The notes under the pieces are model-generated. The model did no database searches and was not told the DNA's origin. It saw nothing but the letters and a program-made list of their open reading frames with translations. A DNA stretch of 64,000 bases from Fimbriimonadaceae bacterium (lineage in GTDB: Bacteria; Armatimonadota; Fimbriimonadia; Fimbriimonadales; Fimbriimonadaceae), in contig JAHCHO010000007.1 of NCBI GenBank assembly GCA_026129685.1, forward strand, positions 124,001 through 188,000, given 5' to 3'. Positions 16,506 to 29,020 of this stretch are shown piece by piece. The translations under genes were made by a program, and so were the position numbers. Position 1 is the stretch's first letter; each line of letters opens with the position of its first letter.

Positions 16506-18893
16506 ATGGTCGAACTGAGAGACCGCCGCCTCCTTATCGATGGCAAGCCGACCCTCGTCTTCGCGGGCGAAATCCACTACTTCCGCCTCAAACGGAGCGA
16601 GTGGGAGGACCGGGTCCGCAAACTGAAGTTGCTCGGCGCGAACGCGGTCGCGACCTACGTCCCCTGGCTCGTTCACGAGCCCCGCGAAGGCGAGTTCGAC
16701 GTGACCGGCCGCCTCCGCCCCGAAAACGACCTCGGCGCGTTCATCGACCTCTGTCACGAGCAAGGTCTCTGGTTCCTGCCGCGCCCCGGGCCGTTCATCA
16801 TGGCCGAGGTCAAGAACGAGGGCATCCCTTACTGGGTCTACCGCAACTACCCCGAGACCGTGCCGATCACCTGGGACGGCGAGAAGGCCCGCTCCAAAAC
16901 CCTCGACTACCTGGCACCATCCTTCCTCGCCGCCGCCGAACGTTGGTACCGCGCCGTCATGCCGCTGATCGCCGCTCGCCTGGAACCTAAGGGCGGCCCG
17001 GTGATCGGCGTCCAGCTCGACAACGAAATCGGGATGCTGTCCTGGGTCAACAACCAACCCGACCTGACAGAGACCTTTCTCTGCGACTTCTCCGCCTGGC
17101 TCGCCGGCCGATACGACACCGACGCCCTCAAGGGGCGCTACCCGTTCGACCTTTACGACCCGATTCCCCGCGCGAAGGCCGTCCGGTCGCCCCAGGAGTC
17201 CTACGCCGCCGCCCTTCACCGCGACCTGGGCGACTACCAGCGGGTCCGCTTCGCCCGTTACATCGCGGCTTTGCGCGGATTCGCCGAGGCCCAAGGCGTC
17301 ACCGGCGTCCCCTTCATCGTCAACATCCACGGCACAGGCGGCGGTCGCGGGCGGACCTACCCGATCGGCATCCAGCAACTCGCCGCGTCCTACACCCAGG
17401 ACGAGGGCTACCTCCCCGGCTCGGACCACTACCTCGGCGAACTCACCCGCGAAAACGCCCCCGACCTCTACCTCGAGGTCAACGCCTTCACCGCCGCTTC
17501 CGCCCGCACGGGGCAACCGATCTCGTCGATGGAGTTCGAGGTCGGTACCGGCGACTACGGCGAGACCGGGGCGGTGCGCCAGTCCGGCGCCTCCGCCGAC
17601 TTCAAAGTCCGCCTTAGCCTCATGCAGGGCAACCGTCTCCTCAACTACTACCTTCTCGCGGGCGGAACGAATCCCCCCCTCCTCGACCCGGTCGGCGACG
17701 GCAACGACCGCGTCGCCTTCACCGGCCAGCGCCACGGATTCGCCGCCCCGATTTCGCCGGAAGGATGGCTCGACCCTACCTACCACGGCCTCCAGGCTAC
17801 GACTCTGGCGATGGTCGCGATCGCCGACAAGTTGGCGGACATGGACGAGGAGCACGACCCCGTTGCGGTCGGCTATCTGCCCGACTACTACAAGACCGAC
17901 TACCACCGGCCCGGCGTCATGGAGTCGATCGTCCGAGGAGTGGAATGGGTGCGCGAGCCGATGATCACGACCGCGCGGGCGATGCTCTTCAACGGCTTCC
18001 GATTTCCGGCCGTCGACCTGCAGACGGGCGAACTCGACGCCAAAGCCCACCCCGCCCTCGTCGTCGCCGCCGCCCGCTACATGGACCGGTCCGCTCAGGA
18101 TCGCCTGGCTCGGTACGTCGCGGAGGGAGGCCGTCTGCTGCTCGTGGGCGAGTTTCCCTATGCGGACATGGAGGCCAGGCGGTGCGTGGTGCTGGCCGAT
18201 GCCCTCGGGGTTCGGCCAAAGGGGTTCGTCGCCGAGGCGCCCTACTCCTACCCGTCCTTGCGGGGGACGGCTTGGGCGGTGGGCCAGCCGGAAGTCCGCG
18301 TCTGGCGGTGCCAGACCTTTGAAGACCATCCCGGCGCCTTCATGCGCGTCGTCGGGACCGACGATCCCACCGGCATCGAGATCGCGCGCGGCAAGGGCAA
18401 GGCCATCGTGTTCGCCGGCAACTACCCGTGCCACCTGCGGTTCTTCCGCACCATGCTCCAGCGTCTCGACCTCGTCCCCGGGTTACGTTGCGACGCCTCC
18501 TACGGTGGCGTCGTCACGACCAGCGTTCGGAATCGGGCGGGCGAGCGGTTCGTGACCGTCCTCAATCTCGACCCGGTCGAGAAGGAACTGGCCCTCACCG
18601 AAGCGAGCAAGCCCCTGTTCGACGCCGAGCCGATCGTGATGGCCGCTCGTTCCGCGCGAACGATCCCGTTGAACGTGGCCTTCCCGAACGCGCGCGTCGT
18701 TTACGCGACCACCGACATCCTCGCCGTCGAGGTGAAGGAGCTACGGTTCAAGGGAACGGGCCAGGCGGAGCGCATCGTCCTCGAGACCGCCCACAAAGTC
18801 ACCGTCGAGAACGCTGAGGCGCGCAAAGACGGGGGCTTGATCCGCATTCGGACCAAGCCGCATGCCGGGACGGTCGTGGTTCGGTTCGGCTAG
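16506..18893 (+). CDS. GH35 beta-galactosidase
   Basis: The 795-aa glycoside hydrolase removes terminal beta-galactosyl residues. Its N-terminal TIM barrel carries GEIHYFRLKRSEWEDR, TYVPWLVHEPREGEFD and FLPRPGPFIMAEV, all characteristic of GH35. The acid/base glutamate fits QLDNEIG (about residue 178) and the nucleophile SSMEFEVG (about 343). C-terminal beta-sandwich domains follow. No signal peptide is seen, so it is cytoplasmic. It is a single gene, divergent from the BNR protein, and its stop codon shares a CTAG with the stop of the convergent PQQ dehydrogenase gene. Confidence 0.92.
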   Translation: MVELRDRRLLIDGKPTLVFAGEIHYFRLKRSEWEDRVRKLKLLGANAVATYVPWLVHEPREGEFDVTGRLRPENDLGAFIDLCHEQGLWFLPRPGPFIMAEVKNEGIPYWVYRNYPETVPITWDGEKARSKTLDYLAPSFLAAAERWYRAVMPLIAARLEPKGGPVIGVQLDNEIGMLSWVNNQPDLTETFLCDFSAWLAGRYDTDALKGRYPFDLYDPIPRAKAVRSPQESYAAALHRDLGDYQRVRFARYIAALRGFAEAQGVTGVPFIVNIHGTGGGRGRTYPIGIQQLAASYTQDEGYLPGSDHYLGELTRENAPDLYLEVNAFTAASARTGQPISSMEFEVGTGDYGETGAVRQSGASADFKVRLSLMQGNRLLNYYLLAGGTNPPLLDPVGDGNDRVAFTGQRHGFAAPISPEGWLDPTYHGLQATTLAMVAIADKLADMDEEHDPVAVGYLPDYYKTDYHRPGVMESIVRGVEWVREPMITTARAMLFNGFRFPAVDLQTGELDAKAHPALVVAAARYMDRSAQDRLARYVAEGGRLLLVGEFPYADMEARRCVVLADALGVRPKGFVAEAPYSYPSLRGTAWAVGQPEVRVWRCQTFEDHPGAFMRVVGTDDPTGIEIARGKGKAIVFAGNYPCHLRFFRTMLQRLDLVPGLRCDASYGGVVTTSVRNRAGERFVTVLNLDPVEKELALTEASKPLFDAEPIVMAARSARTIPLNVAFPNARVVYATTDILAVEVKELRFKGTGQAERIVLETAHKVTVENAEARKDGGLIRIRTKPHAGTVVVRFG

Positions 18894-24124: not shown

Positions 24125-25159
24125 GTGAACGTTCCCAACCCCCGAACCACCGTGAAGGTCTTCGCCACGACCGGCATGGACGACCTCGGGAAAGGGGTGG
24201 AGAACGAGATGCGGTGTCGCCTGGCCGACCACCCCGACTACGCGGTGGAGGCGGGCGAGTTGAGCGTCAGCAAGTTCTCGAACGAAAACATCGAGGTGCA
24301 GATCAGCAACGTCCGGGACCACCTGGTGCTGGTGCTCCACACCCAGGTCCCGCCCGTGAGCGACGGGCTGATTCAGCTGTTTGCGCTCCTCGACGCCATC
24401 AACAACGCCCACCCGCGCCAGGTGTTTCTGGTGTTCCCGTACATGCCGTACAGCCGTTCCGATCGGAAGAACCGGCCGCGCATCTCGGTCATGGGCCAGC
24501 GGCTTCCGGAGATTCTGAATCGGGTCCTGGGGGTGCACCGGGTGATGCTGCTCGCGCCCCACGATCCCCACATCAAGCAGTACTTCATCCCGACGGCGGA
24601 CGAGGTTCCGGTGCTGCCGATGCTGGTGGATTTCATCCGGCGCGAATACCTGAGTCGGTGGGCGCGGGAGGACTGCGCGATCGTGTTCGCCGACTCGGCG
24701 GCCGCCAAGCGGTTCGAGGAAGTGCCCTCGGTGCTTGGCCTCGACCCCGCCTACATCTATAAAAGCCGGATCGACCACAGCGAGTCCCCTACCGTCAAGG
24801 CCATCACCGGCCGGGTGGACGGGCGGCACTGCTTCATCGTGGACGACGAGATTCTGACCGGCAACACCGTCATGCGCGACGCGGCCATTCTCAAGGAGCA
24901 GGGCGCGGCGTCGGTCCACGTGTTGGGCGTCCACGGGGTCCTGGCGGATCAGCGCCTGAGTGTGGAGGAACTGATGGCCAAGTTGTCGGAATCCGACGTG
25001 GACGAGTTCGTCGTGACCGATTCGATCCCACTGGGCGACAAGGTGCGGCTCATGAACGGCAAGCTCACCGTTATCCCGATCGCGCCGCTGCTTGGCGAGA
25101 CCTGTAAACGCCTGATCCTGGGCGAGTCGCTGAGCGTGCTGCACCGGATGGGCGTTTGA
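24125..25159 (+). CDS. prs: Divergent ribose-phosphate pyrophosphokinase (PRPP synthetase)
   Basis: The 344-aa protein makes PRPP from ribose 5-phosphate and ATP for nucleotide, His and Trp synthesis. The ATP-binding flexible loop is PYSRSDRKNRPRISVMGQ. The PRPP-binding loop is FIVDDEILTGNTV where most class I enzymes read DDMIDTAGT, and the PDAGG region is replaced by FADSAAAKRF. The fold order and SNENIEVQI, DAINNAHPRQVFLVFPYMPY segments fit the family despite these changes. The GTG was chosen because it follows TACAAT by six bases and starts the domain. Symbol by family; a moonlighting or changed specificity cannot be excluded. Confidence 0.82.
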   Translation: MNVPNPRTTVKVFATTGMDDLGKGVENEMRCRLADHPDYAVEAGELSVSKFSNENIEVQISNVRDHLVLVLHTQVPPVSDGLIQLFALLDAINNAHPRQVFLVFPYMPYSRSDRKNRPRISVMGQRLPEILNRVLGVHRVMLLAPHDPHIKQYFIPTADEVPVLPMLVDFIRREYLSRWAREDCAIVFADSAAAKRFEEVPSVLGLDPAYIYKSRIDHSESPTVKAITGRVDGRHCFIVDDEILTGNTVMRDAAILKEQGAASVHVLGVHGVLADQRLSVEELMAKLSESDVDEFVVTDSIPLGDKVRLMNGKLTVIPIAPLLGETCKRLILGESLSVLHRMGV

Positions 25160-25198: not shown

Positions 25199-25204
25199 TA
25201 TAGT
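25199..25204 (+). promoter_or_regulatory. -10-like TATAGT upstream of the Arg-rich mini-ORF and argDF
   Basis: TATAGT is followed by six bases (CGGGCC) and a GTG at 25211. The same spacing occurs at prs, which suggests the mini-ORF is translated from a leaderless transcript that continues into the argD-argF gene. Confidence 0.5.
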
Positions 25205-25210
25205 CGGGCC

Positions 25211-25291
25211 GTGCGGCAACACGTTTCCGTAGCCTCTGCGGCCGGAACCATCCTCTTCAAGCACCGCCGTCGCGCCTTGCGACGACGATAG
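25211..25291 (+). CDS. Arginine-rich leader peptide, putative attenuator mini-ORF
   Basis: This is a 26-codon ORF: GTG start, then an ordinary stretch (RQHVSVASAAGTILFKH), then Arg-Arg-Arg-Ala-Leu-Arg-Arg-Arg-stop. Seven of 26 codons are Arg, and the last three sense codons are consecutive CGA, usually a slowly read codon. It lies 97 bp before the arginine-biosynthesis fusion gene argD-argF and just before a 9-bp hairpin. By analogy with the his, trp and leu leader peptides, ribosome stalling on Arg codons could sense arginine supply. That it is translated is inference from codon content, the upstream TATAGT and position. Confidence 0.55.
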   Translation: MRQHVSVASAAGTILFKHRRRALRRR

Positions 25292-25324
25292 GTCCTGCCG
25301 ACGACCACTCGGTTCTCGGCAGGA
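25268..25324 (+). promoter_or_regulatory. Putative arginine attenuator hairpins
   Basis: Hairpin 1 lies within the Arg codons: CGTCGC (25268-25273) pairs with GCGACG (25279-25284). Hairpin 2 starts 2 nt after the mini-ORF stop: TCCTGCCGA (25293-25301) pairs with TCGGCAGGA (25316-25324), a perfect 9-bp stem with a 14-nt loop. A ribosome paused on the CGA triplets would cover the start of hairpin 2. There is no U-tract after hairpin 2, so it may pause RNA polymerase or block translation rather than be a classic terminator. Confidence 0.45.
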
Positions 25325-25388
25325 AGCCGCCCTTGCCGCCGTATCGGCGTTCATCGTCCCACGCTTTCGCTTCCCCACGGTTCTCCCC

Positions 25389-27491
25389 ATGCTCAAATAC
25401 GACACCATCAAAGCTCTCGACGACGAGTACGTCCTCCAGACGTACCACCGCTTCCCCGCGCTGATCGTCCAGGGGTCGGGCTGCTCGGTGTGGGACAACC
25501 GAGGGAACGAGTACCTCGACCTCCTCGCCGGAATCGCCGTGGATTCGCTCGGCCACTGCCACCCCGCCGTCGTCTCCGCCATCACCCGCCAAGCCCAGCA
25601 ACTGATGGTCGCGTCGGGCTACGTCCTGACCGCGCCGCAAGCGCAACTCGCGAAGCGGCTGTGCGAGATCAGCGGCATGGACCGCGTGTTCTTCGCCAAC
25701 TGTGGCACCACCGCGAACGAGACCGCGATCAAAATCGCCAAGAAGCACGGTCTCTCGAAGCGTCCGGACGGGGACTACGAGATCGTGTCGCTGCTCGGGA
25801 GCTTTCACGGCCGGACCCTCGGGTCGGTCAGCGCGGGGGGCCAGCGTAAGCACCAGCGGCCGTTCGAGCCGCTCGTGCCCGGCTTCCGGCACGTCCCGAT
25901 CAACGACCTGAAGGCCCTCCGGGAGGCGGTTTCGCACAAGACGGCGGCGATCATCGTCGAGCCGATCCAGGGCGAATCGGGCGTCCATCCCTGCACGACG
26001 ACGTACCTGCAACTCGCGCGCGAACTGGCGTCGGAACACGACGCGATGCTGATCTTCGACGAGGTCCAGACCGGAATCGGTCGAACCGGGGCTTGGTTCA
26101 ACTACCAGAAGCACAACGTCCTGCCCGATCTCGTGTGCCTGGCGAAAGGCCTCGGCGGGGGATTCCCGATCGGCTGCACCCTCGCGCGTGGCAAGGCGGC
26201 GACGCTCATCGTTCCCGGCGAGCACGGCTCGACGTTCGGCGGGAACCCGCTGGCGTGCGCGGTGGCCCTGGCGGTTCTCGACGCGATTGAGAACCACCGG
26301 CTCATGGACGAGGTGAACGAGGTCGGCCCGTACCTCCAGGCCCAGCTCAAGTCGCTCGGATCGTTCGACGACGTGCGCGGCGAGGGCCTGATGATCGGCG
26401 CCACACTCAAGCAGGACAACGCGAAGGACGTGGTGCGCCTCGCCTTCGAGAAGCGCCTGATCCTCAACGCGACCGACGAACGGACGCTGCGCTTCGTGCC
26501 GCCTCTTATCCTGACCAAGAAGCAGGTGGACCAAGCGATCGCGATCCTCGCCGAGGTCCTCGGCGTCGAGCGCACCGTTGCCGTGTCCGCCCCGGCGGCG
26601 CGTCCGGAACCGCTTCACGACCTGCTCACGATCGACGACCTCTCCGACGCGCGTCTCGAGGAGTTGCTCGCCCTGGCGTCTTACCTCAAGCAACGGCGCG
26701 CGGTGTCTCCGAGTCCGATCGTGCCCGTCGAAGGTCGCACGGTGGCGCTCCTGTTCGAAAAGCCCTCGCTTCGGACCCGCCTCACCTTCGAGGCGGCGGT
26801 CCAAGAACTGGGCGGCTATCCGGTGTACCTGGCGAAGTCGGACGTCGGCTTGGGTTCGCGCGAGGCGGTCCAGGACATTGGCAGCAATCTGGCCGAGTGG
26901 TGTTCGATCATCGTGGCGCGGCTCTATTGGCAACGGGACTTGGAAGCCCTCGCGCGGATCGCGGACGTGCCCGTGGTGAACGCCCTGACCGAGATGGAGC
27001 ACCCTCTCCAGGCCTTGGCGGACATGATGACGATCCGCGAGGAGTTCGGCGACGAGCGCGTGAAGATCGCCTACGTGGGTGACGGCAACAACGTGGCCCG
27101 TAGCCTCGCCAAGGTCGCCACGCGGATGGGCTACCCGTTCACGATCTGCGGTCCGGAGAACTTCCGCCTCGAACCGATGGCGGGGGTCGAGCAAACCGGC
27201 GACCTGGAGACGGGTCTGGCCGACGCGAAGGTGGTCTACACCGACGTCTGGATCAGCATGGGCGACGAGCACGAGCAGGAGCACCGCCTGAAAATCTTTG
27301 AAAGCTATCAGGTCAACCGCGATGTGATGCGGATGGCGGCGAAAGACGCGATCTTCATGCATTGCCTCCCGGCACGGCGCGGCTTCGAGGTCACCGACGA
27401 CGTGATGGACAGTCCCCAGAGCCGGGTGGTGCCGCAGGCGGGCAACCGGCTGCACACCGCCAAGGCCGTGCTGCAGACGATCATGGGGTAG
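25389..27491 (+). CDS. argD-argF: Fused N-acetylornithine aminotransferase - ornithine carbamoyltransferase
   Basis: One uninterrupted 700-aa frame carries two arginine-pathway enzymes. Residues 1 to about 395 are a class III PLP aminotransferase of the ArgD type: NCGTTANETAIKIAKKHG, IFDEVQTGIGRTGAWF, and the PLP lysine K253 in CLAKGLGGGFPIG. A Pro/Ala linker (about 395-412) leads into a complete ornithine carbamoyltransferase. It has SLRTR (460-464) for carbamoyl phosphate, HPLQ (538-541) and the ornithine-site HCLP (658-661). All key residues are present in both halves. The enzymes catalyse non-adjacent steps, separated by deacetylation of acetylornithine. There is no Shine-Dalgarno sequence before the ATG; the upstream Arg-rich mini-ORF and hairpin may control it. 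Confidence 0.95.
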   Translation: MLKYDTIKALDDEYVLQTYHRFPALIVQGSGCSVWDNRGNEYLDLLAGIAVDSLGHCHPAVVSAITRQAQQLMVASGYVLTAPQAQLAKRLCEISGMDRVFFANCGTTANETAIKIAKKHGLSKRPDGDYEIVSLLGSFHGRTLGSVSAGGQRKHQRPFEPLVPGFRHVPINDLKALREAVSHKTAAIIVEPIQGESGVHPCTTTYLQLARELASEHDAMLIFDEVQTGIGRTGAWFNYQKHNVLPDLVCLAKGLGGGFPIGCTLARGKAATLIVPGEHGSTFGGNPLACAVALAVLDAIENHRLMDEVNEVGPYLQAQLKSLGSFDDVRGEGLMIGATLKQDNAKDVVRLAFEKRLILNATDERTLRFVPPLILTKKQVDQAIAILAEVLGVERTVAVSAPAARPEPLHDLLTIDDLSDARLEELLALASYLKQRRAVSPSPIVPVEGRTVALLFEKPSLRTRLTFEAAVQELGGYPVYLAKSDVGLGSREAVQDIGSNLAEWCSIIVARLYWQRDLEALARIADVPVVNALTEMEHPLQALADMMTIREEFGDERVKIAYVGDGNNVARSLAKVATRMGYPFTICGPENFRLEPMAGVEQTGDLETGLADAKVVYTDVWISMGDEHEQEHRLKIFESYQVNRDVMRMAAKDAIFMHCLPARRGFEVTDDVMDSPQSRVVPQAGNRLHTAKAVLQTIMG

Positions 27492-27524
27492 CGATCCGAG
27501 GCGTTGGGAGGCGACTGTGACACA

Positions 27525-28271
27525 ATGCGGGGACCCGTGAGCCTCGCCAAGCCGTCCCGTCGCGTCTCCCCCGCCGAACCCGTGTCCGAGTTGCGTCACG
27601 TCCGGATCTTCGAGTGCGGCGAGCCGCTCGTGGATTTTCTCGAGTTCTGCCCTAAGGTGATTCAGGACACGCCGCGCTTCAGCTATCGCCGCGAAACCCT
27701 GTTGCGCCTCGGGGTCGCGGAGCGCTTGCGCGCGGCCTCCGAGGCGCTCCCCGGCGAATACCGGCTGGCCGTCCTGGAGGGATGGCGTCCGCTTCACATT
27801 CAGCGGCGCATGTACCTGCGGACCTGGAACATGTTCAAGGAGCGACACCCCGATTGGTCGGACGTCCAGTTGCGGCGCGTCGTCAACCGGTTCACCGCTC
27901 CCCTCGGTTCGAAGGTGCCGCCGCCGCACCTCACCGGAGGGGCGCTGGACGTGTTTCTGGCGTACCCGGACGGAACTCGGCTCGACCATTGTCGGCCCTT
28001 CGAACCCTACGATCCGCGCTGTTTCGCGTCCGACTGCCCGGAGATCGGCGAGAGGGCCAAGCGAACCCGGCGAATCCTCGCGGACGCCCTGACGGCGGGC
28101 GGCCTGACGAACTACCCGAGCGAGTACTGGCATTGGAGCTTTGGGGACCAAGGCTGGGCCTACCGCGGCGGCCACCCCCACGCCCTCTACGGACCGATCG
28201 AGCCCAACGGTTACACGCCGGAGCCGGGCGACGACCGCGACGAACCCTTGGTTCGGCTAGAGGGCGCGTGA
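27525..28271 (+). CDS. D-Ala-D-Ala dipeptidase-like protein (VanX/DdpX, peptidase M15D)
   Basis: The protein of about 248 aa has the M15D zinc-site pattern: LTGGALDVFLAY gives the G-x-A-x-D part (His upstream in PPHLTGGALD), and PSEYWHWSFGDQGWAY gives the E-x-W-H catalytic Glu/His. EGWRPLHIQRRMY matches the family's conserved Arg segment. It hydrolyses D-Ala-D-Ala or related peptidoglycan dipeptides and has no signal peptide, so it is probably cytoplasmic and used in cell-wall recycling. The start could be ATG 27525 or GTG 27537; a CACAAT hexamer overlaps the ATG. It follows argD-argF by only 33 bp. No vanA/vanH neighbours, so resistance is unlikely. Confidence 0.85.
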   Translation: MRGPVSLAKPSRRVSPAEPVSELRHVRIFECGEPLVDFLEFCPKVIQDTPRFSYRRETLLRLGVAERLRAASEALPGEYRLAVLEGWRPLHIQRRMYLRTWNMFKERHPDWSDVQLRRVVNRFTAPLGSKVPPPHLTGGALDVFLAYPDGTRLDHCRPFEPYDPRCFASDCPEIGERAKRTRRILADALTAGGLTNYPSEYWHWSFGDQGWAYRGGHPHALYGPIEPNGYTPEPGDDRDEPLVRLEGA

Positions 28272-28291: not shown

Positions 28292-29020
28292 ATGCGCGGC
28301 ACCCTCCTGAACACCGGGACGGTGGCGGGTGGTTCGCTCATCGGCCTGGCGCTGGGTTCGCGACTCCCGTCCGAGTTGTTGACGATGGCCTTGACGGGCC
28401 TTGGCCTGGTAACGATCGGGATCGGCCTGAAGATGGTTCTCGGGGCGCGCAACCTGCTCGTGGTCGCCGCGTCGGTGGCGATCGGCGGCGTCCTCGGCCG
28501 GCTCATCGGCATCGAGGCGGGCTTGGCCGCGTTCGGGGACTGGTCGAAGGGTTCGCTCGGCGCGCTCGGCACCGGCCGCTTTACGGAGGCGATCGTGACG
28601 ACCTCCGTCCTCTTCTGCGTGGGGCCGATGACGATCCTCGGTTGCATCCAGGACGCGGTCGAGAAGAAGATCGAGTTGCTCGCGCTCAAGTCGGTGATGG
28701 ATGGGGTGGCCAGCGTGTTCCTGGCGGCGTTGCTGGGCCCGGGCGTTCTCGTGACGGCGGCGATCGTCCTCGTCGTTCAGGGCACGATCACCCTCCTCGC
28801 CCGGTACCTGCGTCCGATCGCCGAGAATCCGGCTCTCCTTTCCGATACGGTGGCCAGCGGGGGCGTGATGCTGACGGCGATCGGGTTCGGTCTCGCGGAC
28901 ATCAAGAAGATCCCTTCCGGCGACTACCTTCCCGCTCTCGCCTTGGCGGTCCTGTTCGGCTGGGTCGCCGTCCGGTTCGAGAAGGGCGCCGCCACCAATG
29001 TGGAGGACGCGCCCGTCTAG
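28292..29020 (+). CDS. DUF554 family membrane protein
   Basis: The 242-aa polytopic membrane protein has about seven hydrophobic segments. MRGTLLNTGTVAGGSLIGLALG at the N-terminus, FCVGPMTILGCIQDA in the middle and TASGGVMLTAIGFG-like VASGGVMLTAIGFGLADIKK are all hallmarks of DUF554, a widespread family whose function is unknown. The ATG was chosen for the family-like N-terminus. A GTG at 28268 overlapping the dipeptidase stop would allow translational coupling but adds eight unlikely residues. Its stop codon shares a CTAG with the stop of the convergent glycosyltransferase gene. Confidence 0.88.
   Translation: MRGTLLNTGTVAGGSLIGLALGSRLPSELLTMALTGLGLVTIGIGLKMVLGARNLLVVAASVAIGGVLGRLIGIEAGLAAFGDWSKGSLGALGTGRFTEAIVTTSVLFCVGPMTILGCIQDAVEKKIELLALKSVMDGVASVFLAALLGPGVLVTAAIVLVVQGTITLLARYLRPIAENPALLSDTVASGGVMLTAIGFGLADIKKIPSGDYLPALALAVLFGWVAVRFEKGAATNVEDAPV

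Follow-up and report, generated by a model that had tools for sequence, protein, structure and literature searches.

How do bacteria that lack the arginine repressor ArgR control their arginine genes? This question is raised by a locus of a Fimbriimonadaceae bacterium (phylum Armatimonadota; genome size 3.94 Mb) that lies in the window analyzed here, a 64-kb stretch of DNA corresponding to positions 124001-188000 of its contig. Elsewhere, arginine genes are under end-product control by ArgR or by a T-box, and to our knowledge bacterial arginine synthesis is generally described as controlled in these two ways rather than by leader-peptide attenuation. The initial annotation of the window had pointed to a candidate arginine attenuator, and this reading is now supported by a conserved leader, a covarying stem and the absence of ArgR. 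Specifically, comparison of sequences suggests, with a probability of roughly 0.7, that a ribosome-mediated arginine attenuator controls the gene argDF in bacteria devoid of ArgR.

The putative regulated gene lies on the plus strand at 25389-27491 and joins acetylornithine aminotransferase to ornithine carbamoyltransferase. The initial annotation had rightly assigned the downstream gene, written argD-argF, to arginine synthesis; as a correction, argD and argF form one fused open reading frame of 700 amino acids, in which ArgD occupies residues 14-391 and ornithine carbamoyltransferase residues 411-699. Full-length matches to the fusion are present in 31 of the 85 genomes of the family Fimbriimonadaceae, distributed over 8 genera, and none was found elsewhere in the order, of which 113 genomes were searched. 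The genes that follow, encoding an M15-type D-Ala-D-Ala dipeptidase-like protein (27504-28271) and a DUF554 protein (28355-29017), have no obvious link to arginine.

A search for ArgR (PF01316) found none in the source genome (G000), and the identical search was positive in 9 of 14 control genomes. Across the family, ArgR is encoded in 0 of the 31 fusion genomes versus 28 of the 54 others, a difference for which the Fisher p of 1e-7 is too small owing to the shared ancestry of the species. Genus g6 contains three ArgR-bearing genomes (G013, G014 and G027), all of which are without the fusion. With no ArgR encoded, the argDF leader stands outside any ArgR regulon. The proposed attenuator would have arginine end-product control in common with ArgR and T-box systems; it differs from them in that the fusion genomes have no ArgR and that no T-box match was obtained.

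The putative leader begins directly behind a -10 promoter box, TATAGT, at 25199-25204 on the plus strand. Six bases past this box, a GTG at 25211 opens an ORF of 26 codons, VRQHVSVASAAGTILFKHRRRALRRR, which spans 25211-25291 including its TAG (25289-25291) and ends in CGA CGA CGA TAG; all of these elements, already described in the initial annotation, were recovered at the same coordinates. The final eight codons, CGC CGT CGC GCC TTG CGA CGA CGA (25265-25288, plus strand), are the predicted arginine sensor, and folding also predicts the second small hairpin that had been described within the arginine codons. The position of TATAGT predicts a leaderless transcript that starts at the leader start codon. 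A -10 box also lies approximately 5-8 nt before the start codons at 16506, 23440, 24125 and 36550, and since several genes of the window carry such a box directly before their start, leaderless translation looks ordinary here. A further arginine-rich, leaderless-looking ORF on the minus strand (422-463) was set aside, as it appears to be nested in a longer reading frame.

Is the leader kept in relatives? The DNA upstream of argDF was inspected in all 31 fusion genomes, and the comparison of orthologs bore out the expectation of a conserved arginine-rich leader, which was found in 26 of them (22 full ORFs, two longer ones, L020 and L029, and two cut by a contig end, L022 and L025). Their start codon is ATG or GTG and is mostly located 6-11 nt past a TAnnnT box, the layout of the source locus, so that the predicted 5' untranslated region amounts to about 0-5 nt; nearly all leaders fall within this spacing, and in L035 and L038 the box-to-start scan chose another box. 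Across the 22 full leaders, arginine makes up 38% of the final 12 codons (4.6 Arg) versus 8% of the earlier ones, with arginine at codon -2 in 21 leaders and at codons -7 and -6 in 15 each, encoded by CGT, CGC, CGA, CGG or AGG. This enrichment is specific to the reading frame: that of the leaders contains 101 arginine codons, the two alternative frames 35 and 22. Apart from arginine, the leader peptide is unconserved between genera, as expected if the identity of the codons alone matters, and close leader pairs display no clear purifying pattern in synonymous versus non-synonymous changes. A mechanical scan of the argDF upstream regions for ORFs of 15-32 codons that start 4-11 nt after TAnnnT and contain at least 4 arginines in the last 12 codons was positive in 18 of 28 genomes, versus 0.04 expected from shuffles, although the thresholds were chosen with the leader already known and the species are related, so that a binomial p overstates the significance. 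On this comparative evidence the leader ORF is not a product of chance, and it very likely senses arginine.

Lack of the leader is confined to five fusion genomes, all from genera g26 and g30; on a tree of 30 ArgDF proteins two changes of state suffice to explain its distribution. In one of these loci (L037, g26) argDF has a strong Shine-Dalgarno site; in two others (L016 and L019, g30) a -10 box lies directly before argDF, and the gene itself appears leaderless. Among other biosynthetic genes, neither a consistent tryptophan leader before trpE (10 genomes) nor a consistent kind of arginine leader on the argC-argJ operon (7 genomes) was found, and no comparable leader was seen at the unfused argD or argF genes of G031, G051 and G059. 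Several trpE genes of relatives themselves look leaderless, and one locus of the argC-argJ set (L154) has two arginine-rich TTG ORFs. In G009, the ArgJ match falls into two pieces (L156 and L157), both reporting a 487-aa open frame, which suggests an insertion in ArgJ.

Just past the leader stop lies a stem, P1, at 25293-25324 on the plus strand, whose arms UCCUGCCGA (25293-25301) and UCGGCAGGA (25316-25324) form 9 perfect pairs. The initial annotation had noted this hairpin from the second base past the stop, and folding of 25289-25330 confirms it (z = -4.95; 0 of 200 shuffles as stable). In most relatives, P1 starts at the final base of the stop codon (UAGGGGAG...CUCCCC). Four leaders (L020, L025, L029 and L033) lack the usual stop, and their ORF continues to an end inside P1 or its loop. 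As P1 in each of the 26 loci thus lies at, just past or within the end of the leader, a ribosome completing the leader must reach and open it.

The stem covaries, as had been anticipated for a genuine attenuator. An alignment of 21 species contains 17 double-change cells versus 4.9 in shuffles, a count that 0 of 500 shuffles reach, even if the relatedness of the species means that such counts overstate independence; every slid control scored lower. In all 20,000 permutations, matched arms gave stronger pairing than exchanged ones, and the source P1 behaves likewise (residual -13.6). Loop length and sequence vary freely, and the span ranges from 36 to 58 nt. A covariance model of the element, R1, scores strongly at argDF sites only; its other matches are weak (E 0.004-0.08), and G026:C32 probably represents the duplicated end of a contig. 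R1 does not detect the element in the source genome's own genus, where the stem has a different sequence to which the model is blind, so that the layout is shared and not the sequence. A scan of further genome contigs gave no recognizable family member among the matches listed. An Rfam search gave no match up to E = 1, neither a T-box nor a known riboswitch.

The locus thereby combines two hallmarks of leader-peptide attenuation, a short ORF rich in codons for the end product and an RNA structure at a position sensitive to the ribosome. In the model that we favor, scarcity of charged tRNA-Arg would stall the ribosome where the arginine codons begin, usually 7-12 codons ahead of the stop; P1 would then remain closed and argDF would be on. 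When arginine is plentiful, the ribosome would complete the leader, run into P1 and open the stem. Unstructured, C-rich RNA would then be exposed and expression switched off by early termination, most likely via Rho, or else by a block of argDF initiation. The sign of this response, with stalling as on and completion as off, fits the need of a biosynthetic gene. That P1 acts as the switch is probable, if less so than that the leader senses arginine.

The candidate Rho-binding region is the segment at 25302-25388 (plus strand), which would be exposed with a ribosome sitting on the leader stop and which is C-rich, G-poor and without a Shine-Dalgarno site. Among 26 species, the exposed segment measures 74-139 nt up to argDF and contains more C than G in every case (26/26), with a C/G ratio of 2.19 versus 1.09 in the region upstream of the promoter. 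Once the 5' arm of P1 is occluded, the remaining RNA folds less stably than its shuffled versions (mean z +0.56), while it reaches a mean z of -1.22 where P1 is allowed to form. The segment thereby bears the sequence hallmark of a Rho-dependent attenuator, namely at least about 70 nt of unstructured RNA, ahead of or at the gene start, in which C is abundant and G scarce. Rho is encoded in 11 of the 12 genomes tested; it was not found in the leader-bearing G075, a genome that is 96% complete. These features make Rho a plausible output step, at odds just short of even. Slightly more tentative is the model in its full form, namely a leaderless attenuator that would replace ArgR without a terminator hairpin, with the opened stop-stem lengthening the Rho-binding region and stalling at arginine codons keeping the stem closed.

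An alternative is that the output is translational, with the arginine-codon region pairing with RNA just before the argDF start. A ribosome that has left the leader would then allow initiation to be blocked and a stalled one would free it, while termination would merely follow from the lack of translation, in the manner of the LEU element or toiL (see below). Long leader-to-tail helices in L028, L031, L032, L035 and L017 are compatible with this, and matched leader and tail sequences pair more strongly than exchanged ones (p 0.014 by permutation), yet the signal is weak (mean z -0.53) and confounded by composition and relatedness. Moreover, the helix is absent in the source locus (z +0.83), and there are hardly any Shine-Dalgarno sites to hide, as such a site is nearly always missing before argDF (L032 has a weak one). 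We therefore regard a purely translational output as rather unlikely, though the most credible of the alternatives.

The initial annotation had likened the locus to the his, trp and leu systems. In these attenuators of proteobacteria, the leader peptide is rich in the end-product amino acid, and the position of the ribosome decides how the RNA folds. Both features recur in the proposed argDF leader, which differs in its amino acid, arginine, in its predicted leaderless start, and in having neither a terminator/antiterminator pair nor a U-tract. The arrangement of leader peptide and stem, together with U-runs in a few tails (L013, L034 and L038), could suggest a classical attenuator of this type, in which an antiterminator and an intrinsic terminator exclude each other. 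Against it, a search of the window yielded no intrinsic terminator on the sense strand, the lack of a U-tract after the stem, noted before, was confirmed, and no conserved tail hairpin follows P1 in relatives (mean z -0.07). Blocking P1, furthermore, leaves unstructured RNA in place of a competing fold. As such, the comparison with his and trp does not hold at the level of the terminator, and a classical attenuator is improbable.

Less probable still is that P1 and its loops form a metabolite riboswitch or a protein-binding site, to which the ORF would be incidental. The sequence CGUAUYUAGGGGAG around the leader stop, conserved at the nucleotide level in many species (within L013-L036), would be compatible with such a site, but the free variation of the loops, the lack of an Rfam match and the frame specificity of the arginine enrichment argue against it. 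The conserved stretch includes an Ile codon directly ahead of the stop (11 of 22 leaders) and may reflect termination context or a nascent-peptide effect. That the hairpin is simply the 3' end of prs, which ends upstream of the leader at 25159, or that ORF and hairpin coincide by chance, as arginine-rich short ORFs behind TA-rich boxes can (three others occur in the window), is barely credible given that G001 and G002 keep leader and stem although the sequence further upstream differs and that six genera with argDF share the layout.

Among known systems, the leaderless polycysteine attenuators of mycobacteria appear closest in mechanism (Canestrari 2020, as reviewed in PMC9031893 and cited in PMC13236596). 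As described there, they share with the argDF leader a leaderless short ORF with contiguous codons for the regulated amino acid upstream of the operon; they concern cysteine rather than arginine and another phylum, and the covarying stop-stem and the near-absence of Shine-Dalgarno sites at the regulated gene set the argDF leader apart. A 2005 survey of Actinobacteria reported cysteine leaders, those of mycobacteria included, without terminators and possibly using Rho, and T-box control of arginine genes in other species, and named no arginine attenuator (PMC1262725). The LEU element upstream of actinobacterial leuA likewise has consecutive regulatory codons ahead of a biosynthetic gene, with possible pairing of these codons with RNA near the gene start, and mutation of its leucine codons reportedly leaves leuA regulation unchanged; unlike in this element, no pseudoknot or Shine-Dalgarno pairing was found for the argDF leader (PMC1262725). 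Finally, the toiL uORF of E. coli topAI couples leader translation to Rho-dependent termination via RNA structure, as in our proposal, in that the position of the uORF ribosome alters RNA structure and hence termination, but toiL senses antibiotics rather than an amino acid and acts on a ribosome-binding site (PMC12121999). Searches of open-access papers turned up no previous case of a biosynthetic gene in bacteria under ribosome-mediated attenuation by arginine.

If the proposed attenuator is real, it would broaden the range of leader-peptide attenuation to include arginine and the little-studied phylum Armatimonadota, and it would indicate that attenuation can rest on leaderless translation without a terminator. 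Furthermore, the family would offer a setting in which the replacement of one regulatory principle by another can be tested, with genus g6 and its ArgR genomes that lack the fusion as a point of comparison.
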